This document shows, one piece after another, positions 51 through 25,760 of a DNA stretch of 26,492 bases. The notes beneath the pieces are model-generated. The model was not told where the DNA came from. It searched no databases and was given only the letters and a program-made list of their open reading frames with translations. The stretch comes from a virus: positions 1 to 26,492 of IMG/VR virus record IMGVR_UViG_3300034190_004231; one strand, written 5' to 3'. Made by a program: the position numbers and the translations under genes. Every line of letters starts with the position of its first letter. Within the stretch, counting starts at the first letter, position 1.

Positions 51-320
51 TTAGGATCTAGCAAATTGATTATTTCTTTTGTTAGTCTTTCTCTTTTTCC
101 TAAACTGATTTCTTTCTTCTCTTTGAAATTTTATTTCAAGTTGTTTTTGCTTTTTAAGCCAACGCGCACGTCCTGCACGAGAAGCTTCTCTACGTTTTTC
201 ACCTTTAGTTTTGTGAAACTGGTTATCACGTAGCTTCTTAAAAAAGCCTTCTTCATGTAATTTTTTATTTAATATGCGATAGGCTTTACCGATATCATTG
301 TTTCGAACGTAAATTCTCAT
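51..320 (-). CDS. rpsU: Ribosomal protein bS21 homologue (phage-encoded)
   Basis: Small, very basic 89-residue protein. The N-terminal MRIYVRNNDIGKAYRILNKK aligns with the start of bacterial bS21 (VxVRxNE, then a helix that places R/K regularly). It is followed by the bS21-type segment with KLRDNQFHKTKGEKRRE (about residues 29-44) and a Lys/Arg-rich tail. bS21 sits on the 30S subunit near the anti-Shine-Dalgarno end of 16S rRNA and helps initiation. An in-frame ATG at 353 would add 11 residues. The ATG at 320 is preferred because homologues begin there and GGA lies just upstream. It is the last complete gene of the leftward operon and its start overlaps the end of the SDR gene by 26 nt, so it is probably translationally coupled. 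Phage bS21 genes are known in aquatic phages. The tail (residues 60-89) is longer than in cellular bS21. Confidence 0.8.
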   Translation of the reverse strand: MRIYVRNNDIGKAYRILNKKLHEEGFFKKLRDNQFHKTKGEKRREASRAGRARWLKKQKQLEIKFQREERNQFRKKRKTNKRNNQFARS

Positions 321-1227
321 ATTTTCCGTAGTAATCTCTAATTGTTTCCTCATAAGTATTATATTTTAATCTCACACTAAAGGTGTCAAATAGTTTTGAA
401 CTATCTAACATACCTCTTGGTTTACCTGTAGGACCAAGTTTATTATTTACTACAAAATCATAAGGATAAATTTTTTGTAGAACCTGTCCATCTCTAATTA
501 AATTAGAACTTATATTATAAGTTCCTGGCACCCACTTAGCAATGATATTTTTAACTATTTCAACAAAATCGTCGATATAAATACAATCAGCGGCCTCAAC
601 ATTAACTGGTTTATTTTTTTCAATTTGTCTTTCAATATTCATCCAAATCGGAAATTTAGAGTCACCAATCCCATAAACATGAATAGGTCTCAAAATTATA
701 TCTTTTTCTGTACAGTATGCCTCACTTCTTTTTTTACACCTACCATAATAATCAACAGGATTTGTTGAGTCGGTTTCTTTAATCGCTCCTTCCCAAGTAC
801 CATAAACCATAGAAGAGCTTAGATGTAATATAGGACACTTATGTCTTATTTTTAATGTAGCAAGTCCTTCTACAATAGAATTAAGACAGAAATCTTCATA
901 AAAACTTGATAAAATAGCTTCAGACAAACTTCCACAATTTAAAATTAAATCATAAGTTTTACTATCAAAATAATCATAAGACCAACTTCTAATAACCTTT
1001 GCCTTAGTTTTTTTAACTAAATTCATTCTATATTTAATATTTAAATCTCTATGATATTGTTCTAATTTAGAAATATTACCAACACCTACTTTTGGTCCTC
1101 TATATATTTTTTTATATCCAGGATAAGAATAGCCAAATTTATCTAATATGGTAATTTCATGATTTTTTAATGCATATACTAAATGAGATCCAATGAATCC
1201 TAATCCGCCTGTTATAAGAATTTTCAT
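295..1227 (-). CDS. NAD(P)-dependent epimerase/dehydratase (extended SDR family)
   Basis: Extended short-chain dehydrogenase/reductase of 310 residues, the usual length for nucleotide-sugar epimerases and dehydratases. The N-terminal TGGLGFIGSHL (residues 6-16) is the GxxGxxG dinucleotide-binding loop. Residues 137-139 (SSS) and Y161xxxK165 form the Ser/Tyr/Lys catalytic set. The family usually acts on UDP-, GDP- or dTDP-sugars (4-epimerisation, 4,6-dehydration, reduction); the substrate cannot be read from sequence. It overlaps the upstream radical SAM gene by 4 nt and the downstream bS21 gene by 26 nt. With the DegT aminotransferase in the same operon, an amino-sugar or related tailoring route is the simplest reading. 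Confidence 0.85.
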   Translation of the reverse strand: MKILITGGLGFIGSHLVYALKNHEITILDKFGYSYPGYKKIYRGPKVGVGNISKLEQYHRDLNIKYRMNLVKKTKAKVIRSWSYDYFDSKTYDLILNCGSLSEAILSSFYEDFCLNSIVEGLATLKIRHKCPILHLSSSMVYGTWEGAIKETDSTNPVDYYGRCKKRSEAYCTEKDIILRPIHVYGIGDSKFPIWMNIERQIEKNKPVNVEAADCIYIDDFVEIVKNIIAKWVPGTYNISSNLIRDGQVLQKIYPYDFVVNNKLGPTGKPRGMLDSSKLFDTFSVRLKYNTYEETIRDYYGKYENLRSKQ

Positions 1228-2153
1228 TTAAATTGCCCAAAATTGCTTATAAGATGAAGTTCTTTATCAGTGTAGCCATTCATTTGTTCATCTGTCCAAA
1301 CACTTCTATCATTAGAAATACCCCATAAAGTATTAAGATGTATATTTATATTTTTAATATTTTGTATTGCACTTAAAAAAGATTTCCATTTAAAAAGACA
1401 CTTAGGTTCAATCATACACTTGACAATAACCCAGTTTTTGCTATCTCTATTTGATAAAGCTTTTAATTTGTCATACATTTTACGAAAATTTACGTCTTGT
1501 CTATGAATAGAAATATTTAAATTACTATAATTAGATAAATTTACTAAATAATCAATACTTCTACTTCCATTTGTATTTGTAGTAACTTTAGAATCATTAT
1601 TATGTAAATATTTACAAATTTCAATATAATTACTAAATAATGTTGGTTCTCCTCCCCAAAATGTAAATTTTGCGTTTTGCCATCCTAACTCATAAAATCT
1701 ATCAATTGCTTTAATGATGTCTTCAAACTTTTGTTTACTTTTTTCTTTACTGTGAACAGACGTTGGACAATACCAACAATCAAAGTTGCACTGCTTAAGT
1801 AAATACCAACTAATATATTTATCTTGTTCTATTCCTTTAATTTCTTGCAAAAAAGAGTTTTTATCATTTGATTTTTTTGGTGTAGGCATATCTAAATAGC
1901 ACTTACACCAATCTAAAGGACAGGATATCCATAAATTTTTAGGAAAAATAATTTTGTCGTAAATGTTACCTAAGTAACCTGCACTCTCACAATCTCCACC
2001 TCTTACGTCACCTTTTTCATCAATACTTAAAACATGCTGTAATGCACTGCATTTCCAACCCTTCCAATTATTTAATTTTTGTGTCCTAATTTCTTGCACA
2101 CTGAAAGCTGTATTTACATTATTTATGTCAGTAGCAATAATATTTTTTACCAT
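1224..2153 (-). CDS. Radical SAM enzyme with an N-terminal auxiliary Cys cluster
   Basis: 309 residues. The radical SAM [4Fe-4S] motif CNFDCWYC is at residues 122-129 and the SAM-binding FWGGEP at 165-170. Ahead of the barrel lies a Cys-rich segment: C35, a strand reading LSIDEKGDV, GGDC (C55), LGNIYD, then C78, C83 and C85. This resembles the SPASM/twitch domains that bind auxiliary Fe-S clusters, but those usually follow the barrel, whereas here the segment precedes it. The protein ends soon after the barrel. It lies next to a second radical SAM gene (7-nt overlap), so the two may act in succession or as a complex. Substrate unknown; peptide, sugar and small-molecule acceptors are all possible. 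Confidence 0.8.
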   Translation of the reverse strand: MVKNIIATDINNVNTAFSVQEIRTQKLNNWKGWKCSALQHVLSIDEKGDVRGGDCESAGYLGNIYDKIIFPKNLWISCPLDWCKCYLDMPTPKKSNDKNSFLQEIKGIEQDKYISWYLLKQCNFDCWYCPTSVHSKEKSKQKFEDIIKAIDRFYELGWQNAKFTFWGGEPTLFSNYIEICKYLHNNDSKVTTNTNGSRSIDYLVNLSNYSNLNISIHRQDVNFRKMYDKLKALSNRDSKNWVIVKCMIEPKCLFKWKSFLSAIQNIKNINIHLNTLWGISNDRSVWTDEQMNGYTDKELHLISNFGQFK

Positions 2154-2983
2154 ATTTTTTTATCATATATAACATCAGTATCTTTTTCTCTACACATTGA
2201 ACAAATTGATTCTGGTTTGTCTTTTGTTCTAAACCAATTATTTTTTACAGTTTCTGAGTCATTAAAAGATAACGAAGTGTACATGTTTTTATATTTATCC
2301 CAATCCTCTGGATTTGTAATAGTGTTTAACAAATCATCGAGATGTGCTGTGGGCATACATTTCCATAATTTACCTTTGTATAGCCTTGTACAGTGAGACC
2401 ACATACAAACATTGTGAGCTTTGATATAATCTGAATTAAAAGGTTTAATGCCCTCATCATACATTTTAGCCCAGTTACTCGACATGTTTCTTAGTTCAAA
2501 AGTAAATTTATCTTTTTTAAAAGTTTTTGCAAAAGACACTGTTGGATATTTTATTTCATAACGGGTGTAATCACCTATAAAACTTTTGATATTATCTTTC
2601 AGTAACTTTTCATATCTTTTATTTTTTGAATGAATACTAATTACCAACATACATTTAGTATCATTTAAAACTTGTGCTAAATGTAAATTTTTTTTCAATA
2701 ATAACCCATTACTAAATAATCTAAGATCAGTTTTTGGAAACATCTCTCTTGCCATATAAATTAAAGATGACAAATCTTTATATAATAAAGGTTCTCCGCC
2801 TATTATTTGTAACCTTAAAGGATTAATAAATGGTTTCCAGTTTAGTAAATCTTTTTCTAAAGATTGTTTGTTTTGTTTTGAGCTTGTTACTTTAAGGTTA
2901 GAATATACATTACAATGATCACAAGATAAATTACAGTCTAAAGAAATAGGTATATCTAATAAACGTATATCATACTGTTTCAT
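2147..2983 (-). CDS. Radical SAM enzyme with a SPASM-like C-terminal Cys cluster
   Basis: 278 residues. CNLSCDHC at residues 17-24 ligates the radical SAM [4Fe-4S] cluster and IIGGEP (60-65) is the SAM-binding motif. The C-terminus carries C193, C198, C209, C261 and C264 in a SPASM-like arrangement (strand KGKLWKC, then CxxC), suggesting one auxiliary cluster. Such enzymes often modify peptides, but also sugars and nucleoside-like substrates. The gene overlaps the DegT aminotransferase upstream by 14 nt and the second radical SAM gene downstream by 7 nt. The two radical SAM proteins are clearly different and not a recent duplication. Confidence 0.8.
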   Translation of the reverse strand: MKQYDIRLLDIPISLDCNLSCDHCNVYSNLKVTSSKQNKQSLEKDLLNWKPFINPLRLQIIGGEPLLYKDLSSLIYMAREMFPKTDLRLFSNGLLLKKNLHLAQVLNDTKCMLVISIHSKNKRYEKLLKDNIKSFIGDYTRYEIKYPTVSFAKTFKKDKFTFELRNMSSNWAKMYDEGIKPFNSDYIKAHNVCMWSHCTRLYKGKLWKCMPTAHLDDLLNTITNPEDWDKYKNMYTSLSFNDSETVKNNWFRTKDKPESICSMCREKDTDVIYDKKIW

Positions 2984-4079
2984 TTAATGCTTCAGCTATT
3001 CTATCTAGTTCTTCTTGCTCCATAAAATGATGAGAAGGTAAGTGAATTAAGTTTTCAGTAAATTCTTTAACTCCTGATAAATCTTCTTGTGCTTCAAAAA
3101 AAGAAAAAGAAGACATAGGTTCTTTAAACATCGTTCTTGCCAAGCATTTAATTGAGTGAAGCTTATTAAGGACAAAGGCAACTTGGTCTGAAGGAACAAA
3201 CATTGAGAATCTTTCCCAAATATAATTTTCTCCGGATATAGATTTAAAGGGAAGATTGTTATTATACCAAGTAGCAATTTGATTTCGACGCTCTCGATAC
3301 TCGAATTGCTCATAAAGCTGAATTTCTTTTAAAAGAACGGCACAAGAGGTATTGTCTAAAAAACTTTTAGTGCCATAACCTACTATTTGTTTTTGTTTTG
3401 ATGTTCCATGCGCTTGTATTTCGTATATTCTCTCATGAATATCAGCATGACGAGTCGCAATTCCTCCTCCAGAACCTAACGTGCCTGGTCCTTTTGTAAA
3501 ATCAAAAGAATAACATACTAAATCAGATAGTTGTCCGGGTTTATATTTAATAGGCGCGCCCATGTAAAATGCAGGAGCAGCATCCTCAATTATCTTTATT
3601 TTAGGAAGATACTTTTTAATAGTACTACATAATTCTGGCACGTTTGCCATTGTGCCAAAATTGTGTATAATTATAAGCGCATTTGCATAATTATTTTTAA
3701 TTTTTGCCCATTTTTTTAATGCCTCTACAGAAATATTACCTGTTTCATCAATGTCAATAAATTTTAAACGCCTATTCATAAATCGAACTGCATTTGCTAC
3801 ACCTCTCCATCCATAGGCAGGAACAAGAATAGTATCACCTTCTTTTGTTAAGGCGTGAACAGCTATTTGTAGTGAATCTGTGCCACAATTTGTAAAATTC
3901 CAATAAGGAATATTAGATAACTCTACGCATTTATTTGTTAATTCTTTCTGTATAGGAGCAATATCACGACCATCTTCTGCTTGATATGGGTAATCCATAG
4001 CATTAGAGATAGCTCGAAGATAATCAACCTTATGTTTTTCTACACGTTGTCGATGAGGTATAAAAGCAATTGATTTCAT
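2970..4079 (-). CDS. DegT/DnrJ/EryC1/StrS-family PLP aminotransferase
   Basis: 369 residues, typical for sugar aminotransferases of fold type I. Visible marks are NCGTDSLQIA (residues 64-73; phosphate-binding GT), VPAYGW (86-91), IEDAAPAF (164-171; D166 pairs with the PLP ring nitrogen) and SFDFTKGPGTLGSGGG (191-206) with the probable PLP lysine K196. The family typically transaminates keto-sugars of nucleotide-sugar pathways, and a few members act as dehydratases without a lysine; here the lysine is present. It sits between the PP-loop gene (1 nt shared at 4079) and the radical SAM gene (14-nt overlap). Confidence 0.85.
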   Translation of the reverse strand: MKSIAFIPHRQRVEKHKVDYLRAISNAMDYPYQAEDGRDIAPIQKELTNKCVELSNIPYWNFTNCGTDSLQIAVHALTKEGDTILVPAYGWRGVANAVRFMNRRLKFIDIDETGNISVEALKKWAKIKNNYANALIIIHNFGTMANVPELCSTIKKYLPKIKIIEDAAPAFYMGAPIKYKPGQLSDLVCYSFDFTKGPGTLGSGGGIATRHADIHERIYEIQAHGTSKQKQIVGYGTKSFLDNTSCAVLLKEIQLYEQFEYRERRNQIATWYNNNLPFKSISGENYIWERFSMFVPSDQVAFVLNKLHSIKCLARTMFKEPMSSFSFFEAQEDLSGVKEFTENLIHLPSHHFMEQEELDRIAEALNETV

Positions 4080-5086
4080 TAACTTAATTCTATGTCTGCA
4101 AACTTAATATACTTATTAGCATAAGAATGAACAAGTTTATTACCAAGAGTAGAATTCTTTAAAAGATCAATATACTTTCTTTTAAGATTAATATTTTTTG
4201 TTTCTTTCAATAGCATTTTTGTTTTAACACTCATTAAAAAATGAGCACTTCCATAGTAAAGTTTACTATTTGCTTGATACGGAGCATCTGGGGCAATTGG
4301 GATATCTCTAATCACACCTATTTTTGCTTTTTCAAATTTTGTTTTATCTGTTATATTATTCATCTTGCAAAAATTTTTGAGCATATAGGTTTGTTTAACA
4401 TCTAGTTTTGGAAGATCAGATGATGAAAAAAATAATTCAATATTTGTTAGGTTTGAATATGGTCTGTATACTCCATCTGTATAAATTGCAAACCATTTAT
4501 TATCCCTAAAATCAAGACTCGGGGTTGTTTCGGCAAATAAATTACAAAAATTATCTTTATTATCTAAAATTTGATAGTCGTGGAAGTATCTTAGAACTGT
4601 TGTACCTCTTTTAGCAAACCACTCATCGTTTAAAATAGGTTCAAAATACTTTCCCCCATAGTCAGCTACAGTAAACTTTGTTTTTGGCAAAATCTTGCGT
4701 AATTCATTATAATAAGGAATAGTATAATTATTTAACTCTATATTACTTGAATTATTAAAATTATCGTCTAAGGCATATCTATAACAATGAATTTCATCTA
4801 CATGAATTTTATTTTTTATAAAGGCATTGAGCATTGTAGTAGAGTCAGCCCCGCCACTATACATTATTCTAATGTAAGAATAAGCATCTCTAAGCTGTTC
4901 ACATCTTAATTTAATAAGGTGTTCTAAAGACTCTGTAGGCTCTTGTTCCCAATATACATCAGAAAAAAACTCGGGAGAATACGCGTTAAAAGAAATTTTA
5001 GACATCTTACCGTTAGCGGCTTGTATTGCTTGAAATTTATTATCATAAGCAATACCGTTTACTTCCCAATGAAATAAATCAGACAT
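4079..5086 (-). CDS. PP-loop ATP pyrophosphatase-like protein
   Basis: 335 residues. IMYSGGADSTTML (about 74-86) is the P-loop-like SGGxDS motif of the N-type ATP pyrophosphatases (asparagine synthetase B, ExsB/QueC, GMP synthetase, TilS and WbpG-type amidotransferases). These enzymes adenylate a carbonyl or carboxyl and replace the AMP with ammonia or another nucleophile. The rest does not match one subfamily by eye, and there is no glutaminase domain, so ammonia would come from a partner or a free pool. The gene overlaps the upstream thioredoxin-like gene by 8 nt and is followed at once by the aminotransferase. Amide or amidine formation on the operon's substrate is a reasonable inference. 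Confidence 0.7.
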   Translation of the reverse strand: MSDLFHWEVNGIAYDNKFQAIQAANGKMSKISFNAYSPEFFSDVYWEQEPTESLEHLIKLRCEQLRDAYSYIRIMYSGGADSTTMLNAFIKNKIHVDEIHCYRYALDDNFNNSSNIELNNYTIPYYNELRKILPKTKFTVADYGGKYFEPILNDEWFAKRGTTVLRYFHDYQILDNKDNFCNLFAETTPSLDFRDNKWFAIYTDGVYRPYSNLTNIELFFSSSDLPKLDVKQTYMLKNFCKMNNITDKTKFEKAKIGVIRDIPIAPDAPYQANSKLYYGSAHFLMSVKTKMLLKETKNINLKRKYIDLLKNSTLGNKLVHSYANKYIKFADIELS

Positions 5087-5360
5087 TTAAAGCAGGAATT
5101 GATTGTAACCACTGAACTACTTCTTCATTAGTCCATTTACCATGTCGATGAGTCAAATAAAATCCATTTTCAAGTATCATATACATTGGTAACCTACCCC
5201 GATACTGTGGATGAATATGTCGCGCAATGAGCTCATTAGTTTGATCACTAAGCTCGGTTTCTAGCGCAGGAAAAAAGTTTTTTATTGCAATAAGCTGATT
5301 TTTAATGTATGATAAATTATCTGAGTCGGAATATGCCATTCCAATTATTTTATGGGCCAT
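5079..5360 (-). CDS. Small protein, possibly thioredoxin-fold
   Basis: 93 residues. The C-terminal half (GRLPMYMILENGF, then HGKWTNEEVVQWL) resembles the end of thioredoxin-fold proteins: a cis-Pro strand, a beta-hairpin with Gly, and a last helix. No CxxC is present, so a redox role is not supported; a glutaredoxin-like scaffold or adaptor role is possible. It overlaps the coiled-coil gene upstream (11 nt) and the PP-loop gene downstream (8 nt). The function is unknown and the fold assignment is tentative. Confidence 0.55.
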   Translation of the reverse strand: MAHKIIGMAYSDSDNLSYIKNQLIAIKNFFPALETELSDQTNELIARHIHPQYRGRLPMYMILENGFYLTHRHGKWTNEEVVQWLQSIPALNV

Positions 5361-5544
5361 TTCGCTCTCTCAAGTCGTTGACAATTTCTTCTAAGTTAGC
5401 TTCCATTAGCTGTATACGTTCACCTAAGTCATGAATTTCTTGTTGGAGATAACGAATATCCCCACCTAAATCATTTGCTAATTCACGGACTTGTTGGTGA
5501 ATTTCTTTCAGCTCAAATCTAACATATTTTTCAGTTGCGTACAT
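5350..5544 (-). CDS. Short coiled-coil protein, first gene of the leftward operon
   Basis: 64 residues from the ATG at 5544, rich in E, L, I and R with heptad-like spacing (LKEIHQQVRELANDLGG, then LQQEIHDLGERIQLMEANL), so a coiled coil. The reading frame stays open upstream to 5694, but that stretch is hydrophobic by chance and crosses the promoter at 5552-5580, so the start at 5544 is preferred. No Shine-Dalgarno sequence precedes it. The predicted transcription start is at or within about 1-2 nt of the ATG, so the message may be leaderless. No family is recognised. Confidence 0.6.
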   Translation of the reverse strand: MYATEKYVRFELKEIHQQVRELANDLGGDIRYLQQEIHDLGERIQLMEANLEEIVNDLRERNGP

Positions 5545-5551
5545 GGTTTCT

Positions 5552-5580
5552 ATATTAAATAAAATTAGAAAGATTGTCAA
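5552..5580 (-). promoter_or_regulatory. Leftward sigma70-type promoter
   Basis: Read on the minus strand: TTGACA (5580-5575, six of six), a 17-nt spacer, then TAATAT (5557-5552, four of six). It is placed to drive the whole leftward operon. The -10 element ends 7 nt before the ATG at 5544, so the transcription start falls essentially at the start codon. Confidence 0.65.
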
Positions 5581-5594
5581 CAAAAAACTCAATG

Positions 5595-5618
5595 TAATGC
5601 AAAATTGATATTGCATTA
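5595..5618. promoter_or_regulatory. Operator-like inverted repeat between divergent promoters
   Basis: Perfect 8-bp inverted repeat TAATGCAA (5595-5602) and TTGCATTA (5611-5618), separated by 8 nt. There is no T-run after it, so it does not look like a terminator. Its right arm covers the candidate -35 of the rightward promoter, and it ends 15 bp from the -35 of the leftward one. Binding by a dimeric regulator could control both directions. No regulator gene is identifiable in the window. Confidence 0.5.
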
Positions 5619-5639
5619 TGACAAAAAAAGGAATATAAT
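5611..5639 (+). promoter_or_regulatory. Rightward promoter with perfect -10
   Basis: TTGCAT (5611-5616, three of six), a 17-nt spacer and TATAAT (5634-5639, perfect). The -10 ends 3 nt before the ATG at 5643, so initiation would be at or just after that ATG unless the start site is unusually close. AT-rich sequence makes chance -10 matches common; the mirrored arrangement with the leftward promoter supports it. Confidence 0.45.
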
Positions 5640-5642
5640 ATA

Positions 5643-5849
5643 ATGAATCGACCAAGATTATCTTTTGTACAAGAGTACTTTCAAGATATTGCAAATAAAG
5701 GTAATGAAGAGGCTCAAGACTTAATGAGCGAGTACTTTGATATAAAAGAAAACCAGGGTGAATTTTTAGCAGGTCGTTTTATAATTGAAGTTTATATTGA
5801 AATGCAAAAGACTTTAGAGGAAAATTACAACAATGAGCGCTCCACTTGA
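5643..5849 (+). CDS. Small protein of unknown function
   Basis: 68 residues, acidic and mostly helical in appearance, no family recognised. It is the first gene of the rightward transcription unit. An AAGGA about 9-10 nt before the ATG gives a weak ribosome-binding site if a longer transcript exists. It overlaps the next small gene by 17 nt. Confidence 0.55.
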   Translation: MNRPRLSFVQEYFQDIANKGNEEAQDLMSEYFDIKENQGEFLAGRFIIEVYIEMQKTLEENYNNERST

Positions 5850-7974: not shown

Positions 7975-8598
7975 ATGGCTGATGATGGCCTTGTCAACAT
8001 GAGCAACCAATTCGCAGGACTACCTATGCGAGATTTAATTGGTGGCCCATTACAAGCAGCTTGCGATGCACAAAACATGCTTGCAGCTGCTACTTCAAAT
8101 TTTATTCAGGACGTTGGATTACAAAAAACAGGAGATGGTGCTAATGCAGTAATGACTGCTCGTACTGTTGACTTTTCTTTTGATCGTCCTGCAGCTGCAA
8201 GCGCAAATGCAGCTAATGCTAGTGGAGGAACTGAAAAAGTTGATCTTAAAGTTCCGCTTTTAGCTATTATTAATACTCCTGCGCTCAGTGTAAAAGAAGT
8301 TGATGTCAATTTTACAATGTCTGTCAACTCTTCAACAAGTTCTGAGACAGATTCAGACACGGAAGCGGGGTATGAAGGTTCAGCAAGCGTTCATATTGGA
8401 CCTTTTTCCGCTAAAGTAAGTGTTCACGGTTCTGTGTCTTCTCATAGTAAAGATACTCGTAGTAGCGACAATTCTGCTAAATATGATGTAAAAGTTGTTG
8501 CTAGAGATGATGGACCTCCTGAAGGATTAATGAAAGTATTAGATATGCTTAATACAGCAATAACTCCTCTTCCTTCTTCTTCCGAAACTCCTGCTTAA
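7975..8598 (+). CDS. DUF2589-type protein, second of a pair
   Basis: 207 residues. The N-terminus (NQFAGLPMRDLIGGPLQAAC, residues 11-30) is the signature opening of DUF2589, followed by FIQDVGL. After an Ala-rich linker comes a beta-rich core: VDLKVPLLAIINTPALSV, then VDVNFTMSVNSSTSSE, a Ser-rich loop, and a last strand region KYDVKVVARDDGPPEGLMKVLDML. A good AAAGGAA site precedes the ATG. It is diverged from its neighbour rather than a recent copy. It could be a virion, assembly or membrane-associated protein, but nothing in the sequence decides. Confidence 0.6.
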   Translation: MADDGLVNMSNQFAGLPMRDLIGGPLQAACDAQNMLAAATSNFIQDVGLQKTGDGANAVMTARTVDFSFDRPAAASANAANASGGTEKVDLKVPLLAIINTPALSVKEVDVNFTMSVNSSTSSETDSDTEAGYEGSASVHIGPFSAKVSVHGSVSSHSKDTRSSDNSAKYDVKVVARDDGPPEGLMKVLDMLNTAITPLPSSSETPA

Positions 8599-8647: not shown

Positions 8648-9733
8648 ATGTCTTATTTCAATCAAACATCGACCGACTGGCGATTGTCTCAGTGTTGTCA
8701 ATTTCACGATAAAAAATTAGCGAAACAATTTAATTTTGGAACAACTACAAAAACATATGCACTAAAAGAAGGAGGTAAAAAGCGCGTACAAGAAAAAGCT
8801 TTACATAATGTTAATAGACTTTACCTTATACTTGAACATTATTTTTCGAAACAACCTCGAAATCTTCGTTCTTTTCGTATATCTTCTGAGATGTTTCCTT
8901 GTTATACTTTGGATTTCACTCAAGACTGGTATAAAGAAATTTGGGGAGAAATCTCAGAGACTTTGCATAAGTGTGGAGAGATAGCTAAGTATCATGAGAT
9001 TCGTCTTTCAGTACATCCAGGTCAGTACACTGTTTTAGGTAGTCCAAAAGCTAATGTTGTAGAAAACTCTATCAAAGATTTAGAGTACCACGCCTTATAC
9101 GGTAAACTTATGGGACTACCTGCGGAAGATTTTACTATGAACATTCATTTACAAGGATTATACGGAGGCAAACATATAGATGGAATTAAGAGATTTGCAA
9201 GCAATTTCCAATATCTCTCAGACTACGCACAAAAAACTCTCTCAGTTGAAAACGAAGATAAGCCCAATGGTTATGACATCGAACACACACTCGAACTCGC
9301 AGCAAGAATCCCAACAAGAACATGCCTTGACATACACCATTACGCATGCCACAGGATGCGGCAAAATGAAAAAGTCAAAAACTCACAAGGTAAAGTTGTC
9401 AACAGAAAAATTAGGGACGAAGTTAGACATATTAGTGTAAACGATGACTTTTTTAAAGAAGCAGTAAAAACTTGGAAAGGTGTGCGACCACTCTTTCATA
9501 AATCTCAATCTTTTCCAATTGATAATGAAAATTATTGGATGAAACCTAATGCCCATTCAGATATGTATCACGACGAGGAATTAATGTCTAATGCGATTCC
9601 TATGCTTGAATATGCTGATTTTGAAATAGAAGCTAAACATAAAGAGGTTGCTGTTAATCATTTTTATGATTATATTAATGATGAACAAGATTTAGCGGGT
9701 GAAATGTTACAAACAAAAACGTTTGCTAATTAA
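8648..9733 (+). CDS. uvsE: UV damage endonuclease, UvsE/UVDE type
   Basis: 361 residues from the ATG at 8648; a GTG at 8621 lies inside the hairpin and is less likely. A TIM-barrel metal-dependent endonuclease that nicks DNA 5' of UV photoproducts. Family marks: NVNRLYLILEHY, SFRISSEMFPCYT, LSVHPGQYTVLGS, NIHLQGLYGGK, LSVENEDK and LDIHHYACH (metal-ligand Glu and His). Length is in the family range. Its last 27 nt overlap the convergent SGNH gene. A phage would use it to repair its genome in sunlit water. Confidence 0.9.
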   Translation: MSYFNQTSTDWRLSQCCQFHDKKLAKQFNFGTTTKTYALKEGGKKRVQEKALHNVNRLYLILEHYFSKQPRNLRSFRISSEMFPCYTLDFTQDWYKEIWGEISETLHKCGEIAKYHEIRLSVHPGQYTVLGSPKANVVENSIKDLEYHALYGKLMGLPAEDFTMNIHLQGLYGGKHIDGIKRFASNFQYLSDYAQKTLSVENEDKPNGYDIEHTLELAARIPTRTCLDIHHYACHRMRQNEKVKNSQGKVVNRKIRDEVRHISVNDDFFKEAVKTWKGVRPLFHKSQSFPIDNENYWMKPNAHSDMYHDEELMSNAIPMLEYADFEIEAKHKEVAVNHFYDYINDEQDLAGEMLQTKTFAN

Positions 9734-10360
9734 TTCTGCTGCTTTTAAATGAGAGCTAGGCCCTGCATGAGAACCATCTTTTGCAGGGTCTTTATGCTTT
9801 TCTAAATCAAAATGAATTGGAATGTGGGAATTAGTTAAATTTTTTAAATTAGGGTATAGATGAGGAAAACAGGATAGATGTATCTGCTCTATTCCAGCTC
9901 TTTGGCAAAGTATAATTTGTTTAGCAACTGCTCCTTCCCATAATTCTGTGACTACTTTCTGATCTGAGAAATATAACATTCCTGCTGCGTGCCATGCCGC
10001 TTGATGTTGTTTTTCGTGTTTTCTTTTATTACCTAAAATTTGTTCTGAAAGTATCCAGTTTCTATAATACTTTTCATTTTTTACTATATGATTAGCTATA
10101 ATAAAACCTTGCCACATATTTTTTCTAAAGTCCCAAACTTTCCAACGATATTCACTGGTATGTCCTATGATAATTAAATCAGGTTTTAACTTGACAGCTT
10201 CTTCAACTTGATTTAAAATAAGATATTCTGAAGCACCACTTTGAGCAAGATTTTTAATTTTCGCATCAAATTTTTTTGCTAAAATGTGCGCATAAACTTG
10301 GTCTTGATTATCAAGACCTTCTCCCTGCGTAAATGAGTCACCACAAGATACTATGAGCAT
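9707..10360 (-). CDS. SGNH/GDSL hydrolase, lone minus-strand gene in the plus-strand cluster
   Basis: 217 residues from the ATG at 10360; the frame is open further upstream to 10522, but family homology begins at MLIVSCGDSFTQGEG. Block I GDSFT gives nucleophile S9. NLAQSGASEY is block II, IIIGHTSEY sits where block III usually has GxN, and KDGSHAGPSSH supplies the Asp195/His198 of block V. The family are esterases, lipases or acyltransferases of sugars and lipids. No signal peptide, so it acts in the cytoplasm. The gene overlaps uvsE tail-to-tail (27 bp) and the next SGNH gene head-to-head (8 bp; start codons at the ends of ATGAGCAT). No Shine-Dalgarno is visible. Confidence 0.75.
   Translation of the reverse strand: MLIVSCGDSFTQGEGLDNQDQVYAHILAKKFDAKIKNLAQSGASEYLILNQVEEAVKLKPDLIIIGHTSEYRWKVWDFRKNMWQGFIIANHIVKNEKYYRNWILSEQILGNKRKHEKQHQAAWHAAGMLYFSDQKVVTELWEGAVAKQIILCQRAGIEQIHLSCFPHLYPNLKNLTNSHIPIHFDLEKHKDPAKDGSHAGPSSHLKAAELISKRFCL
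10300..10318. promoter_or_regulatory. 19-bp perfect palindrome upstream of the divergent SGNH starts
   Basis: GGTCTTGATTATCAAGACC is a palindrome with 9-bp arms around one central base at 10309. It ends 34 bp before the ATG at 10353 and lies within the minus-strand SGNH coding region (codons for GLDNQDQ). As DNA it looks like a dimeric operator; as RNA the loop would be only 3 nt. Chance within coding sequence cannot be excluded. Confidence 0.3.
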
Positions 10361-10949
10361 TGCAGAAGATAATATTGTTGTTGTAGGAAATTCTTGGTCA
10401 ATACCAAGTGATGAAGCACCAAAACCTGCATTTTCTTTATTAAACCTTACTAATCGTTGGGAGCATCCAGGCATTACTTTGGATGCACAATCAGAGTATA
10501 TCATAAAAAATAAACTTGTCAAAGCTTTTAAAGTAATTTGGCTGATTGGGCATCATCATCGTGCTGACCCAAAAGGAAACGGAGATTACTTAGTCCCTTA
10601 TGATTGGGGTGAGGGTAATATTTGGGGCAAAATGACTCGTGATATTTGGTTTAAGAAATTTACAAAAATGCCTTGGTATTGGCGAACTAATGCACTTTTC
10701 GTAAAGGCAGCTGTTGAAGGTTTTACTCCTGATAATCTTTTGTTAATTCCTATTTATCGACCAAATATTTTAGAACATAATATGTTACAACACAATTCTT
10801 GTATTTGGTGGGAATATATGCGAGATCTTGCTAAAAATTATTCTGATGGTAGGGGTCATATTAATCAAGTAGGACATACTATTTTTGCTATGAAACTTCG
10901 AGAGGAGATTGAAAACAGGTGGAAGATTTCATTGACAGTAGATGGGTAG
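10353..10949 (+). CDS. SGNH-hydrolase-like protein, divergent from its neighbour
   Basis: 198 residues. Block I is present as VVVGNSWS (residues 9-16, candidate nucleophile S14, with Asn in place of the usual Asp). IGHHHRADP lies in the block III position, and SDGRGHINQVGH (about 164-175) is the block V region with D165/H169. It is therefore a diverged SGNH member, possibly an acyl esterase or acyltransferase. The start overlaps the divergent SGNH start by 8 bp. The 3' end overlaps the oxygenase gene by 31 nt. No ribosome-binding site is visible, so the exact start is less certain than the frame. Confidence 0.65.
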   Translation: MSIAEDNIVVVGNSWSIPSDEAPKPAFSLLNLTNRWEHPGITLDAQSEYIIKNKLVKAFKVIWLIGHHHRADPKGNGDYLVPYDWGEGNIWGKMTRDIWFKKFTKMPWYWRTNALFVKAAVEGFTPDNLLLIPIYRPNILEHNMLQHNSCIWWEYMRDLAKNYSDGRGHINQVGHTIFAMKLREEIENRWKISLTVDG

Positions 10950-11476
10950 ATGCCATCGACGTAGGATTTAATGAATCTATCGCTAAAAATGCTCCTAAAA
11001 TTGTGAAAGAATGTGAGAAAAATTTAAAATTCTTTGGTAATCAATGGTATTCAGATTTTGCAGGTTACAAAGCAATTTTATTAAAACCAGGAGAAGGTTA
11101 TGAATGGCATTTTGATAATATGGATTTTATTAATGGGGTTCTTAGCTGTCCCCGGCCTAATAGATATTGGAGTCAGCTTACTTACTTAACTGATGGACAA
11201 CCTTTTGAAATCGGTGATTGGAATCCTTTAGGAGAGAGGGTTGAACAAACTGAATTTAGTGCACCAATTCCTAATAAAATACTCGCCCGAGTACATCCGA
11301 AACCTGGTGTTACTGTTGTTTTTCCTTGCTTTATGGTTCATAGAATTAGGCCAGTGGTTATTAATAGAAGGTGGGCAATAGTTAGTTTTATTGATAACCC
11401 TAATTATAAAAAAATGAACAAGAAAACTTTAGAATTAATTTTTAAAAGGTATTTTAATGAATATAATGGGTTTTAG
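10919..11476 (+). CDS. 2OG-Fe(II) oxygenase-like hydroxylase
   Basis: 185 residues, GTG start with AGGAG about 11 nt upstream. The double-stranded beta-helix iron site is visible: GYEWHFDNMD (H64, D66), then FPCFMVHRIRPV (H141) and NRRWAIVSF (R150/R151, for 2-oxoglutarate). This is the PKHD/prolyl-4-hydroxylase-like arrangement. It overlaps the SGNH gene upstream (31 nt) and the carbamoyltransferase downstream (20 nt). A hydroxyl group added by such an enzyme could be the acceptor for carbamoylation by the next gene product; that link is inference from adjacency. Confidence 0.75.
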   Translation: MEDFIDSRWVDAIDVGFNESIAKNAPKIVKECEKNLKFFGNQWYSDFAGYKAILLKPGEGYEWHFDNMDFINGVLSCPRPNRYWSQLTYLTDGQPFEIGDWNPLGERVEQTEFSAPIPNKILARVHPKPGVTVVFPCFMVHRIRPVVINRRWAIVSFIDNPNYKKMNKKTLELIFKRYFNEYNGF

Positions 11477-12830
11477 CGCGTATCATCATGATTCAGCAGC
11501 TGTAAATATTTTTAACAATTTAATTGTTGGTGGATCTCAAGAGGAAAGATTTACCCGCAAAAAGTATGATAATAATTTTCCTATTAATACGTTTCGTTGG
11601 TTAAGAAGCCAAAAAGAGCAGACTGATGTTGTTGCTTTTTATGAAAAAAGAGATTTTGTTGAAAGACAAAACATTAAAAGAGAAATTAAAAAAGCACTTC
11701 CAGGCAAATTTGATATTGAATTTTTTGAGCATCATGACTGCCATGCCATGAGTTCTATTTGTACAACTGATTGGGATAGGTGTGCAGTTATGGTTGTTGA
11801 TTCTATGGGAGGTAAATATGCTACTAGTCTTGGTATTTTTGAAGATGATAAAATAACTTGGCTAAAAAGATTTGAATATCCAAACAGTCTAGGATTATTT
11901 TACTCAACCGTAACTCGTTTTTTAGGTTTTAAGCCTTTATCTGATGAAGAAAAGGTCATGTCTGCTGCGGCATATGGCGAGCCAAAGTGGGCTAAATATG
12001 CAAAAGAAAAAATTATTAACACAGAATTAGGAGAATATACTTTACTTCAAGATCTACGTAGAGGTATTGGAGTAGGTGCCTTAGATTGGGATGTTGCTAA
12101 AAGTGCTCAAGATATCTTACAAGAATGCTTAATTAATCTTGCAAGTTGGTTACATTCAGAAACTGGTTCTTCTAAATTAGCATATGCTGGCGGGGTAGCT
12201 TTAAATTGTGTTGCTAACACGGAATTAGCAAGGTATACTGGTTTTAAAGAGATTGCGATTCAACCAGCTGCGGGAGATGCAGGATGTGCTTTAGGAGCGG
12301 CTGCTTTAGTACAAAGACCTCTTTGGGAAGGACCCTACATTGGTTATAATGACTCTTTAAATCAGAACCCAGAAGAAATAGCACACAGAATAATACAAGG
12401 GGAAGTTGTGCCCGTTTTAAATGGTAAAGCTGAATTTGGTCCTCGCGCTCTTGGTAATAGAAGTATTTTATGTTTACCAACTGAACTTAACATTTCAAAA
12501 CTTAACAACATTAAAAAAAGAATTAATGATACTTGGAGACCATATGCTCCTATTTGTCTTGACTCTGTTGCTGAGGATTATTTTGATATCTACATTCCTT
12601 CATACGACATGTTATTTGTTGCTTTTTCAGAGACTGATTTATTTAGAACTCATGACGATACAGCAAGACTTCAACTTGTCAATTCTTCAAAAAATGGATT
12701 TTTAGGAAAAATTCTAGAAATTACTACTGCACATAATCATCCTATTTTAATCAATACAAGTTTAAATGTTAAGGGTAAGCCTATCGTAAATTCTGTTGAT
12801 GATTTCAGAAATGAAATGAAAGTTTTTTAA
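11457..12830 (+). CDS. NodU/CmcH-family carbamoyltransferase
   Basis: 457 residues. Family marks: GFSAYHHDSAAV (about 5-16) and QEERFTRKKYD (28-38), EHHDCHAM with metal-binding His (about 91-98), AYAGGVALNC (about 241-250), KAEFGPRALGNRSIL (about 323-337) and ILINTSLNVKGKPIV near the end. The family transfers a carbamoyl group from carbamoyl phosphate, via carbamoyl-adenylate, to hydroxyls of antibiotics, Nod factors and, in some phages, 5-hydroxymethylcytosine. It is shorter than many members (about 550 or more), but both halves are represented. The acceptor here is unknown. Confidence 0.85.
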   Translation: MNIMGFSAYHHDSAAVNIFNNLIVGGSQEERFTRKKYDNNFPINTFRWLRSQKEQTDVVAFYEKRDFVERQNIKREIKKALPGKFDIEFFEHHDCHAMSSICTTDWDRCAVMVVDSMGGKYATSLGIFEDDKITWLKRFEYPNSLGLFYSTVTRFLGFKPLSDEEKVMSAAAYGEPKWAKYAKEKIINTELGEYTLLQDLRRGIGVGALDWDVAKSAQDILQECLINLASWLHSETGSSKLAYAGGVALNCVANTELARYTGFKEIAIQPAAGDAGCALGAAALVQRPLWEGPYIGYNDSLNQNPEEIAHRIIQGEVVPVLNGKAEFGPRALGNRSILCLPTELNISKLNNIKKRINDTWRPYAPICLDSVAEDYFDIYIPSYDMLFVAFSETDLFRTHDDTARLQLVNSSKNGFLGKILEITTAHNHPILINTSLNVKGKPIVNSVDDFRNEMKVF

Positions 12831-15074: not shown

Positions 15075-15718
15075 AAACAAAAGTAAATTTTATTTCTCCG
15101 TTTGACGTGTCCATAATGAAAGCGAAGTGCCCTCAAAATTACATTGACATGTTAATTGAGACAAGCGGTCAAATATTTAAAGATGACGATTTGTGTGTAA
15201 GACTCGATGCATCTGATGGTTTAGTAGGTAATGTAACTAATGAGGTGCATGTTCCTCAACTTCCTGCTATTAAGAAAATTAATTACTGGATTGAAGATTT
15301 AGCTATTAAATATGCTCGTAAAGATTTTCTTAAAAAGCAAAAAGAATATTCTGAATTACAGAAAAAACATTTTTCAAAAGATCCCCATGTTCAAATTACA
15401 TCTGAATGGATTGTAAGGATGAACCCAGGAGATTTTAATCCGGCTCATTTTCATACTAATTGTCATCTTTCCGGGTTACTGTATTTAAAAATTCCTGATG
15501 GTTTAGAGCGTGACGCCGGAGGTAACTTGCATTTTTTACACGGTAATCCTGCTACTTTTTACACAAATCAATATCAAATTACTCCAAAAGTAGGTGATAC
15601 TTACTTATGGCCCTCTTGGTTACAACATTTTGTCTATCCTTATAAATGTGAAGGTGAACGATGGGTTATGCCATTTAATTTAATTGTTGCTCATGGGGAT
15701 GAAACAACAGTAATATGA
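15071..15718 (+). CDS. Phage-type 2OG-Fe(II) oxygenase (TIGR02466-like)
   Basis: 215 residues. The pattern SEWIVRMNPGDFNPAHFHTN, then SGLLYLKIPDG (134-144) and a late LWPSWLQHFVYPYKCEGERW matches the 2OG oxygenase family common in marine phages. Candidate iron ligands are H126/H128 and H186, and R197 would bind 2-oxoglutarate. Members have unknown substrates. It overlaps genes on both sides by 4 nt. It is the third oxygenase-fold protein of the cluster and unlike the other two in sequence. Confidence 0.75.
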   Translation: MKTKVNFISPFDVSIMKAKCPQNYIDMLIETSGQIFKDDDLCVRLDASDGLVGNVTNEVHVPQLPAIKKINYWIEDLAIKYARKDFLKKQKEYSELQKKHFSKDPHVQITSEWIVRMNPGDFNPAHFHTNCHLSGLLYLKIPDGLERDAGGNLHFLHGNPATFYTNQYQITPKVGDTYLWPSWLQHFVYPYKCEGERWVMPFNLIVAHGDETTVI

Positions 15719-16551
15719 ATAAAAATCGTTATACTATACATAGAGAAAAAGCATCTCAAGAACAACTTGAGAACATGCAATATTTGATTAAAGAGCATTT
15801 AGATGTAAATAGAGAAGAAGACAAAAAATATAAAATTCAAAGAAAATATGTACTTGTTACAGGAGATTCGTGGGCGCAAGGCGAACTTGATGAAAGTAAA
15901 GAATCTGATTGGTCTGCAACTCATTCTGTTAGTGGATATTTAGCCTCTTTGTTTCCTGAGAGATACGTTGCTGTTGGATTTCCAAATCCTGGATGGGATG
16001 ATTTTGAAAGCATATACGTGATTGAACAAATGCAACATATGTTTGATTACGTTGTATTTTTTAAAACATGTGGATTACGTTCTATTATGTTACAAGACCA
16101 CCCTGGGAGAGAAGACTTTGGTATCACCGAAGAAGAATTTGATGTTAAAAATGTTATCGGCCAAGGCAGAATCATAAATAATATTGTTTATGAGATGTTA
16201 AAAGAATGGGAATCAAAATTAATTTTAATTGGTGGTCTTAATAAAATTACTAACGACGGCTCTAAATTAAATACTATTCTTACTATCCCAAGTGTGCTAG
16301 AAAGATACGATTCTAGTGTTGAAGATGTAGATGTTTTTGGTTGGGAAGATATGTGGGAATTTTATAAACCTAGAGTTAAGGGAAATAAAGATTACCAAAA
16401 TTCACTTTTAGAAGTAATGGACAATTTCGGTAAGAAAAAAGAATATATGGAAGCAAATCCTCATCATTATTTTCCTGATGGAAAACATCCAAATAAAGTA
16501 TTGCATGAAGATTTAGCTAAATACCTTGGAGAGTATTTATGGACGCAATAA
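15715..16551 (+). CDS. SGNH-hydrolase-like protein, third in the cluster
   Basis: 278 residues. After a charged N-terminal helix region, VLVTGDSWAQGE (46-57) is block I with S52; GFPNPGWDDF is a plausible block II, VVFFKTCGLRS is in block III position, and HHYFPDGKHPN supplies D255/H258 as the catalytic Asp-His pair. It has no signal peptide. It overlaps the oxygenase upstream (4 nt) and the next gene (13 nt). Likely an ester hydrolase or acyltransferase; substrate unknown. Confidence 0.7.
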   Translation: MNKNRYTIHREKASQEQLENMQYLIKEHLDVNREEDKKYKIQRKYVLVTGDSWAQGELDESKESDWSATHSVSGYLASLFPERYVAVGFPNPGWDDFESIYVIEQMQHMFDYVVFFKTCGLRSIMLQDHPGREDFGITEEEFDVKNVIGQGRIINNIVYEMLKEWESKLILIGGLNKITNDGSKLNTILTIPSVLERYDSSVEDVDVFGWEDMWEFYKPRVKGNKDYQNSLLEVMDNFGKKKEYMEANPHHYFPDGKHPNKVLHEDLAKYLGEYLWTQ

Positions 16552-19017: not shown

Positions 19018-19494
19018 ATGGAACAAACAAAAAAATTAATTAAAAAGGTTAAAAAAATGGAATTAGGGAACCCTTTAATTACTACAATCGTTGGATTAGT
19101 AGTTTTTTATATTGGTCTTAAAATGTTCTCTAGTGGGATGAAATCAATGGGTAATATGGATCATATGAATTTCTTTATTCATAATCCGTATTGGATGTTC
19201 CTCGGTGGTATCGTAATGACTCTACTGTGGCAATCATCCTCGCTTTCGACTACTGCTATCATAGCACTCGTTGCATCAGGAGCAGTACCTCTACCCGCAG
19301 CAGTTGCAGCTGTACTTGGCGCGAACATAGGAACCACCGGCACCATTTGGTTAGCCGGTGTTTTAGTATCTGACGGTATGCCAAAGGGCGATACGTTACG
19401 AATAGCAATGGCTCACACAGGGGTAAACTTAATGATGGCTGTTGCGTTACTACCTTGGGTTCATCATATAGCTAGGTTTCTTGGAAGATTTTAA
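19018..19494 (+). CDS. Half-length Na+/phosphate cotransporter (NptA/PF02690) homologue
   Basis: 158 residues with about four hydrophobic segments. WQSSSLSTTAIIALVASGAV (71-90) is the QSSS signature, followed by VLGANIGTTGT (99-109) and a closing RIAMAHTGVNLMM (128-140) like the RxAxxHxxFN of the family. Full-length members have two inverted QSSS repeats in about 300 or more residues; here there is one, so a dimer would be needed for a transporter. An ATG at 19057 with AAGG upstream would drop 13 residues of basic leader. It sits between endolysin and spanins, where a holin would be expected. Confidence 0.75.
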   Translation: MEQTKKLIKKVKKMELGNPLITTIVGLVVFYIGLKMFSSGMKSMGNMDHMNFFIHNPYWMFLGGIVMTLLWQSSSLSTTAIIALVASGAVPLPAAVAAVLGANIGTTGTIWLAGVLVSDGMPKGDTLRIAMAHTGVNLMMAVALLPWVHHIARFLGRF

Positions 19495-24989: not shown

Positions 24990-25760
24990 ATGACAGCCTT
25001 AGCACATAATGTTTCTACTTTTGAACACGCTCACCCTTTTCCCACTGAAGTTAAAAACTCGTGGACAAATTCTAGTTTAGTTAAGGCTATTCATAGAAGT
25101 CAACACACACAGAGAAATTTTGATAGAAAAAAGGTAATGCCGATTGAGGATATAAAAACAATTATCACTGCGGCTACTCAGTGCCCAAGTAAACAAAATT
25201 TAGCATTTTATGATTTACACATTATTCAAAATCACGACGTGATTGACGAAATTTATAAAACGACTACCAATATGGATATGCCGCTAGAAGAACGAGTAGG
25301 AAATGAATTTTTATCTAATCCACAAGTTCTTGCAAATCTTCTTTTAGTTTTTACTCAAAGCGATTTTATGAAGTCTTCTCAAAATCATAAAAATCTTAGA
25401 GACCTTAGAGACATAATAGAAGGCAGAAGTACTGAAAAAAGAGATCATAGAAAAATTTTAGAGGCAGATATGTACCAAGCTGCAGGTATTGCTGCTGGAT
25501 ATGTAAATATTGTTTCAACTCTTTTAGGATATGAAACTGGTTGTTGTCGTTGTGTGATGGATCACCAAAAACTACTTTCTCTTTTAGGGATTAATAAAAA
25601 AACTTCTATTTTGTTACTTATGGGAGTAGGATTTAAAAATGATGGAATTAACAGGCGTATTCACCCACTTAAAGGATCAAAAGAACATGAATCTAATAAA
25701 TGGCAAAGGGTCTTTCCTACCTTAAAAAAAGAACCTATTAAGATCAAATATATTAAATAA
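24990..25760 (+). CDS. Nitroreductase-family FMN oxidoreductase
   Basis: 256 residues. SLVKAIHRSQHTQRNFDRKK (about 29-48), ITAATQCPSKQNLAFYDLHI (59-78) and AAGIAAGYVNIVSTLLGYETGCC (split over 165-188) match the FMN-binding and dimer motifs of the nitroreductase superfamily. The insert NHKNLRDLRDIIEGRS with a charged stretch is unusual. It would use NAD(P)H to reduce nitro, quinone or flavin substrates; the real phage substrate is unknown. It is expressed from its own strong promoter with a normal leader. Confidence 0.75.
   Translation: MTALAHNVSTFEHAHPFPTEVKNSWTNSSLVKAIHRSQHTQRNFDRKKVMPIEDIKTIITAATQCPSKQNLAFYDLHIIQNHDVIDEIYKTTTNMDMPLEERVGNEFLSNPQVLANLLLVFTQSDFMKSSQNHKNLRDLRDIIEGRSTEKRDHRKILEADMYQAAGIAAGYVNIVSTLLGYETGCCRCVMDHQKLLSLLGINKKTSILLLMGVGFKNDGINRRIHPLKGSKEHESNKWQRVFPTLKKEPIKIKYIK

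Follow-up and report, generated by a model that had tools for sequence, protein, structure and literature searches.

A candidate amino-sugar biosynthesis cassette with alternating SDR and radical SAM genes at a fixed site in marine phages

Aminoglycoside pathways include a dehydrogenase and an aminotransferase that work one after the other, as well as the radical S-adenosylmethionine (SAM) dehydratase AprD4, which is paired with the reductase AprD3 (PMC5461906). In butirosin biosynthesis, the dehydrogenase of 2-deoxy-scyllo-inosamine (2-DOIA) is the radical SAM enzyme BtrN (PMC10991966). Related enzyme families are encoded side by side in the window analyzed here, that is, the whole 26,492-base virus record IMGVR_UViG_3300034190_004231 of IMG/VR, which is a fragment. 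Near its left end, a leftward operon encodes a PP-loop ligase, a DegT-family aminotransferase, two radical SAM proteins (rSAM2 and rSAM1) and an SDR. We favor, with modest confidence, the reading that this operon is an elaborate form of a modular cassette for amino-sugar (or amino-cyclitol) biosynthesis, which a group of marine phages keeps at one genomic site and which feeds the glycans of the virion or of the host.

A conserved core with variable partners

All five enzyme genes are encoded on the minus strand, and each overlaps the next by 1-14 bases. They comprise, in the order of transcription, the PP-loop ATP-dependent ligase (4079..5086), the DegT/DnrJ/EryC1/StrS aminotransferase, which depends on pyridoxal phosphate (PLP) and is the invariant core of the cassette (2970..4079), rSAM2, which belongs to clade a of its family (2147..2983), rSAM1 (1224..2153), and an extended SDR of the NAD-dependent epimerase/dehydratase family (295..1227). 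Two other contigs have the same five genes in the same order: L004, which is 90% identical, and the distant 117-kb contig L286, in which DegT is 59% identical. Between the window and L004, the dN/dS values are 0.09-0.25 across the five genes, indicating that these genes are maintained by purifying selection. The leftward operon is confirmed as real and as more than a chance arrangement. It also takes in two small open reading frames (ORFs) upstream and a ribosomal protein S21-like gene downstream, which are the fixed flanks of the cassette. The first of these ORFs, of about 64 aa (5350..5544, minus strand), is present in 51 of 74 DegT loci; the ORF list gives it as 5350-5694 with a TTG start, and the relatives begin at MYATE, corresponding to an internal ATG start at 5544. 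The second, S93, of 93 aa (5079..5360, minus strand), is the first gene of the cassette and is present in 63 of the 74 loci. The S21-like gene (51..353, minus strand; PF01165, E 7.5e-10), the usual downstream flank, is present in 47 of the 74 loci and overlaps the 3' end of the SDR gene; the left end of the window cuts the region just past it.

When the ORFs around DegT were clustered in these 74 loci, the order was 64-aa ORF, 93-aa ORF, variable genes including DegT, S21-like gene, and further small ORFs. The complete cassettes number 50, all on viral contigs of IMG/VR, and in every one of them the same small ORFs lie upstream of DegT and the same genes, usually the S21-like gene, downstream of it; the loci were collected via DegT, so that its presence in all of them is by selection, and some of the 50 rows are near-duplicates, which was handled by the tree. 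An SDR is encoded in 37 of these cassettes, an rSAM2-type protein in 19, the PP-loop protein in nine, a B12-type radical SAM protein in seven and rSAM1 in four. DegT and SDR alone were observed 16 times, DegT with rSAM2 eight times, and the full five-gene order of the window three times. The sequence-only reading had proposed a joint pathway, against which relatives lacking partner genes would argue, and the 50 cassettes were checked for such relatives. As 47 of them lack the five-gene order and 16 have only DegT and SDR, one fixed joint pathway is unsupported. Supported instead is a DegT core with interchangeable chemistry at the carbinol carbon and optional tailoring steps.

In the tree of rSAM2-type proteins, the cassette members fall mainly into two supported sister clades, a and b. 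Clade b (rSAM2b, 13 rows) is confined to cassettes that lack an SDR, and every SDR-less cassette has rSAM2b; with 37 SDR and 13 rSAM2b cassettes, none of the 50 has both and none has neither. The conserved core is DegT with either SDR or rSAM2b, to which rSAM2a, rSAM1, the PP-loop ligase or other genes may be added. On the DegT tree, SDR and rSAM2b each change at least five times, and in five of five independent contrasts one replaces the other. The rSAM2 of the window is in clade a, which accompanies SDR or, in L267 and L268, rSAM2b; it was rejected as a replacement of the SDR because the replacing protein is of the sister clade b. rSAM1, in turn, is present only where rSAM2a is, namely in all four complete cassettes that carry it and in L008, L009, L011 and L086. 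This nested pattern suggests that the core step comes first, followed by rSAM2a and then rSAM1. That genes lacking a joint function have gathered at a cargo site is extremely unlikely, although the great variability of gene content, and a PP-loop presence that is uncorrelated on the tree with rSAM2, rSAM1 or SDR, are what such gathering would produce: the exclusivity of SDR and rSAM2b holds over five switches, rSAM1 occurs only with rSAM2a, the genes overlap, and their order is conserved over a large distance in L286.

Enzyme families and proposed chemistry

DegT scores 125 bits with PF01041 (cut-off 19.8; E 4e-36), and its Schiff-base Lys196 and PLP-binding Asp166 are present in 49 of 49 full-length relatives. 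By sequence, its closest solved structures are glutamine-scyllo-inositol transaminase, WbpE and QdtB, and it stays far below the NCBIfam cut-offs of the PseC, WecE, DesI and LegC equivalogs (for PseC, 74 versus 424 bits). The SDR scores 53 bits with PF01370 (cut-off 20.9; E 3e-14) and is of the extended nucleotide-sugar type, with GGxGFIG and YGxxK invariant in the aligned set (A9). The amino-sugar-like chemistry anticipated for the operon is supported by enzyme families and by context, that is, by the relatives of DegT, the extended SDR and the sugar genes of related cassettes; as one fixed route it is not supported.

The two radical SAM proteins score 47.5 and 31.7 bits with PF04055 (cut-off 29.5; E 3e-12 and 2e-7), and the CX3CX2C cysteines are invariant in the relatives of both. 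In a twitch arrangement such as that of BtrN, CX9-15GX4C and CX2C follow the core. rSAM2 conforms to it, with CX3CX2C at 17/21/24, CX10GX4C at 193-209 and CX2C at 261-264, and with these cysteines invariant in 30 aligned relatives; the full motif is present in 31 of 38 relatives, and the other seven miss only the CX9-15GX4C pattern. The best match of rSAM2 by sequence in the PDB, 7wzv, shares part of the twitch motif, and the similarity to BtrN (E 2e-6) covers the core only.

In rSAM1, a SPASM-like domain precedes the core, as seen in alignments and in an AlphaFold2 model (pLDDT 92.2, pTM 0.88): five conserved cysteines, CX12GX6C and CX4CXC, are found there in 12 of 12 cassette members. The SPASM motif has seven cysteines, CX9-15GX4C-CX2CX5CX3C-C, and the N-terminal part of rSAM1 does not match it. 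NF033640, the family of N-terminal twitch/SPASM radical SAM proteins, resembles rSAM1 in that the auxiliary-cluster domain precedes the core. However, no score above the 170-bit cut-off was seen: the matches listed for the rSAM1 of the window, 25 of 27, do not include NF033640, and the family member in L111 reaches only 34.8 bits, on the core. A viperin identity was rejected, as NF038283 gave only 55.5 and 44.1 bits against a cut-off of 180. Several side observations concern the same families. True NF033640 members are encoded at other places in related phages; one of them, a full-length protein in L320 (422-1597; G001, a 117-kb relative of L286), adjoins minor tail protein genes, a hint that a tail protein or its glycan may be modified. 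In L136 (7947-8894), a relative of rSAM1 has, unlike the rest of its family, the SPASM-like domain C-terminal to the core, a natural switch of domain order. The viral contig L006 (IMGVR_UViG_3300033388_003070) contains at least seven radical SAM-type ORFs, one with a SPASM-like motif at the C-terminus and its neighbor with one at the N-terminus, alongside glycosyltransferase-like genes and two PP-loop ORFs, one of which seems to be a fusion with a GNAT acetyltransferase.

Peptide maturation is a frequent role of radical SAM/SPASM enzymes, and the structural matches of the rSAM1 model include SkfB, EpeE and SuiB as well as BlsE, QueE, viperin and PFL-activase. Small ORFs flank the cassette, so one might suppose that a small phage protein, for example S93 or S21, is the substrate of the radical SAM/SPASM-like proteins, in the manner of ribosomally synthesized and post-translationally modified peptides. 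We consider this very unlikely, since S93 and S21 are present irrespective of radical SAM genes (S93 is kept also in cassettes lacking any of them, and 16 cassettes contain only DegT and SDR), such systems do not involve DegT or SDR, and the twitch domain is not peptide-specific.

The PP-loop protein has no match in Pfam, NCBIfam or PHROG, and no Pfam similarity was found in any of 50 members of its family; SGGxDS is nearly invariant in these 50 relatives. Its AlphaFold2 model yields Z scores of 9.2-11.0 to asparagine synthetase B and to beta-lactam and carbapenam synthetases. The best structural match (VIA-align) is AsnB 1ct9, residues 122-515 of which align to residues 1-328 of the model (Z 11.0, 279 aligned, rmsd 5.5). 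Like these synthetases, the protein has SGGxDS and, over nearly its whole length, the fold of the synthetase half; unlike the asparagine synthetase family, it has no Pfam-level similarity and no glutaminase domain, as the model aligns only to the synthetase half of AsnB. Motif and predicted fold bear out the identity first read from the sequence. Asparagine-synthetase-type enzymes adenylate a carboxylate and form an amide, which makes it plausible that the PP-loop protein acylates the amine installed by DegT.

In other phages, clusters for DNA modification also contain PP-loop, radical SAM, PLP, glycosyltransferase and carbamoyl enzymes. Phage DNA that carries sugars has been described (PMC12838424). 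It is nevertheless very unlikely indeed that the bases of the phage DNA receive the sugar or amino group: the PP-loop fold is nearer to asparagine synthetase than to QueC-type enzymes, and no PF00303 thymidylate-synthase-type hydroxymethylase is present in 10 related records of up to 117 kb, an absence that is not decisive in fragments.

From the observed gene content, motifs, folds, distribution and exclusivity, we propose the following route. The SDR or rSAM2b would act at a carbinol carbon, either oxidizing it to a ketone that DegT aminates or epimerizing it, by analogy with the 2-deoxystreptamine pathways, in which BtrN, a twitch radical SAM enzyme, or an NAD-dependent dehydrogenase acts. 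In the window, the SDR would perform the carbinol step, rSAM2a would alter the sugar a second time, by radical chemistry, and rSAM1 would add a further change that depends on this second one. The glutaminase-less ligase would adenylate a carboxylate and join it to an amine, plausibly the one from DegT. The product would probably be moved to a glycan on the virion (tail) or on the surface of the infected cell, and the carbamoyl and oxygenase enzymes of the neighboring cluster may add to it. A more far-reaching version, in which the phages carry a self-sufficient, recombining aminoglycoside-type pathway with radical SAM and SDR enzymes interchangeable for the same step, so as to supply the virion with new glycans of the amino-sugar or amino-cyclitol type (or with a small molecule), appears unlikely to us.

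Several points weigh against the proposed amino-sugar cassette. Its substrates, product, acceptor and reaction order are what we infer; the twitch motif of rSAM2 is compatible with other reactions as well, epimerization among them; confidence in the PP-loop model is moderate (pLDDT 72.6), its C-terminal part being poor; and the cassette itself contains no dedicated glycosyltransferase. The sign test for replacement gave p = 0.0625, below which it cannot fall with five contrasts. Moreover, SDR and rSAM2b share one slot beside S21, so that recombination, by mechanically exchanging one for the other, could contribute to their exclusivity, although such a positional explanation would not, on its own, account for a slot that is never empty.

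If the proposed cassette is as we read it, uncultured marine phages build rare sugars by radical chemistry, which bears on host recognition or defense evasion. The cassettes represent a natural, repeatedly re-run swap between an NAD-dependent and a radical SAM enzyme beside one aminotransferase, and the long-standing difficulty of assigning functions to radical SAM enzymes could be approached by pairing: the role of the SDR in one phage should be that of rSAM2b in its sister. The free-standing asparagine-synthetase-type ligases would be a candidate family for amide bonds on sugars.

Local differences were also seen between the window and L004, which are otherwise about 90% identical. The SDRs (295-1227 in the window, 11987-12931 in L004) are about 50-65% identical in the N-terminal half and 93-97% in the C-terminal half, and the rSAM2 proteins (2147-2983 and 10231-11067, respectively) are only 37-47% identical at residues ~120-170. 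These differences suggest recombination or an altered substrate specificity.

Genomic context and distribution

Sugar-related genes recur around the cassettes. A CMP-sugar-type cytidylyltransferase (CTP_transf_3) lies between S93 and SDR in L283, FdtA-like (dTDP-ketoisomerase-like) and RmlB-like ORFs were read from the sequence downstream in L011, and the 117-kb contig L286 encodes an HldE-type (heptose-type) nucleotidyltransferase fused to a cupin. A second module downstream of S21 contains, among 26 loci, NeuD-like ORFs in 23, glycosyltransferase-like ORFs in 24, a second DegT in 18 and a second SDR in 19; the flanking modules also hold WbqC-like ORFs. Lipopolysaccharide (LPS)-type nucleotide-sugar genes of phages are known (PMC9602691), and the glycosyltransferase-like, NeuD-like and WbqC-like ORFs, together with the highly variable gene content, would agree with ordinary genes for the modification of the host surface (LPS or capsule), as often annotated in cyanophages, acting for example against superinfection and exchanged at random around no required core. 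We regard this as rather unlikely, because every cassette has DegT, at a fixed site, and SDR and rSAM2b are strictly exclusive and never both absent, which points to a required core. In addition, a search of 274 gammaproteobacterial genomes at E 1e-40, run without a positive control, did not find the DegT subfamily. In L271, the cassette lies outside its usual site, immediately behind the genes for a tail collar and a structural protein, which favors the virion as the target.

On the right-hand side of the window, genes for an SGNH hydrolase, orf198, a 2-oxoglutarate (2OG)-Fe(II) oxygenase and a carbamoyltransferase (9707..12830) co-occur with the cassette. Among 27 loci that are long enough, the oxygenase is found upstream of the cassette in 25, the carbamoyltransferase in 22, and SGNH and orf198 in 20 each. 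The link of the operon to this cluster, suggested in the sequence-only reading, thus extends to co-occurrence and is unsupported beyond it; the co-occurrence may in part reflect shared gene order. Several unrelated SGNH-hydrolase-like families recur around the cassette (9707-10522 and 15715-16551 in the window, 4897-5466 in L260), and one such family sits inside it in three phages.

An A-type Fe-S carrier is encoded in six of 10 related records, in line with a report of marine phage genomes that have many genes for radical SAM enzymes and for Fe-S assembly (PMC5332604). A NifU-like Fe-S scaffold is encoded in L012 (10619-10909), close to a cassette that has DegT, a twitch radical SAM and a B12-type radical SAM protein. 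The large terminase subunit of L286 is 42-43% identical to those of the T5-like phages My1, AAS21 and KEY, and its genome encodes an NAD-dependent DNA ligase. The window itself carries no phage-type marker, and it is its shared flanks that suggest a T5-like type. A T4-like phage was dropped as a candidate in view of the T5-like terminase in L286; there was also no match to gp23 or gp20, which is not informative alone.

A promoter-like TTGACA-17-TAATAT (5552..5580, minus strand) lies directly upstream of the 64-aa ORF and is only suggestive, as a promoter/terminator scan of the window gave 43 such sites versus 34.5 expected, which is near chance. Elsewhere in the window are a strong DUF2589 protein (7975-8598; E 4e-41), found in only four of the DegT loci, a 158-aa single-repeat homologue of Na+/Pi cotransporters just after the lysozyme gene (19018-19494; PF02690, E 6.5e-16), and a nitroreductase-family gene (24990-25760; PF00881).

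By tblastn, the PP-loop protein and rSAM1 have no match in 50,697 GenBank phage records, and only distant matches were obtained for rSAM2 (two), DegT (five) and SDR (five). In IMG/VR, the DegT subfamily is present in 68 loci; rSAM2-like proteins were found in 78 loci, rSAM1-like proteins in 80 and PP-loop relatives in 40, these three lists including distant relatives outside DegT cassettes. The set of genes, initially called unusual in a phage, is so among GenBank phages and not among environmental viruses, given the 68 DegT-subfamily loci. A scan of genome contigs for rSAM1 gave two near-full-length matches, both in contigs of metagenome-assembled genomes (L205 and L206), and the rest were mostly confined to the core. 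A literature search, with subscription journals mostly outside its reach, found no published description of the cassette.

Comparison with known systems

In the glycan island of cyanophage S-SCSM2R (PQ898602), a protein related to rSAM2 adjoins an ORF annotated as 3-amino-5-hydroxybenzoic acid synthase, among glycosyltransferases and an amidinotransferase. The island differs from the cassette in that the rSAM2-related protein is only 26% identical, no counterpart of rSAM1, PP-loop protein or SDR was found in it, and the phage is of a different type.

The O-antigen amino-sugar pathways (WbpE, QdtB/FdtA, perosamine synthetase) share with the cassette the combination of DegT and an extended SDR, and with its relatives the FdtA-like and RmlB-like ORFs (L011) and the CMP-sugar-type nucleotidyltransferase (L283). 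They contain neither radical SAM steps nor an asparagine-synthetase-type ligase, both of which are encoded in the cassette of the window.

In the aminoglycoside and 2-deoxystreptamine pathways, the similarities are at the family level only. No 2-deoxy-scyllo-inosose synthase was seen, and the cassette, unlike these pathways, is set in a phage genome with S21 and tail genes. What they have in common is a DegT-family aminotransferase that goes with either a twitch radical SAM enzyme or an NAD-type oxidoreductase, additional tailoring by radical SAM enzymes, and a carbamoyltransferase nearby. By analogy, and not as members of these pathways, the phage cassettes would repeat the exchange between dehydrogenase and radical SAM enzyme at one genomic site.

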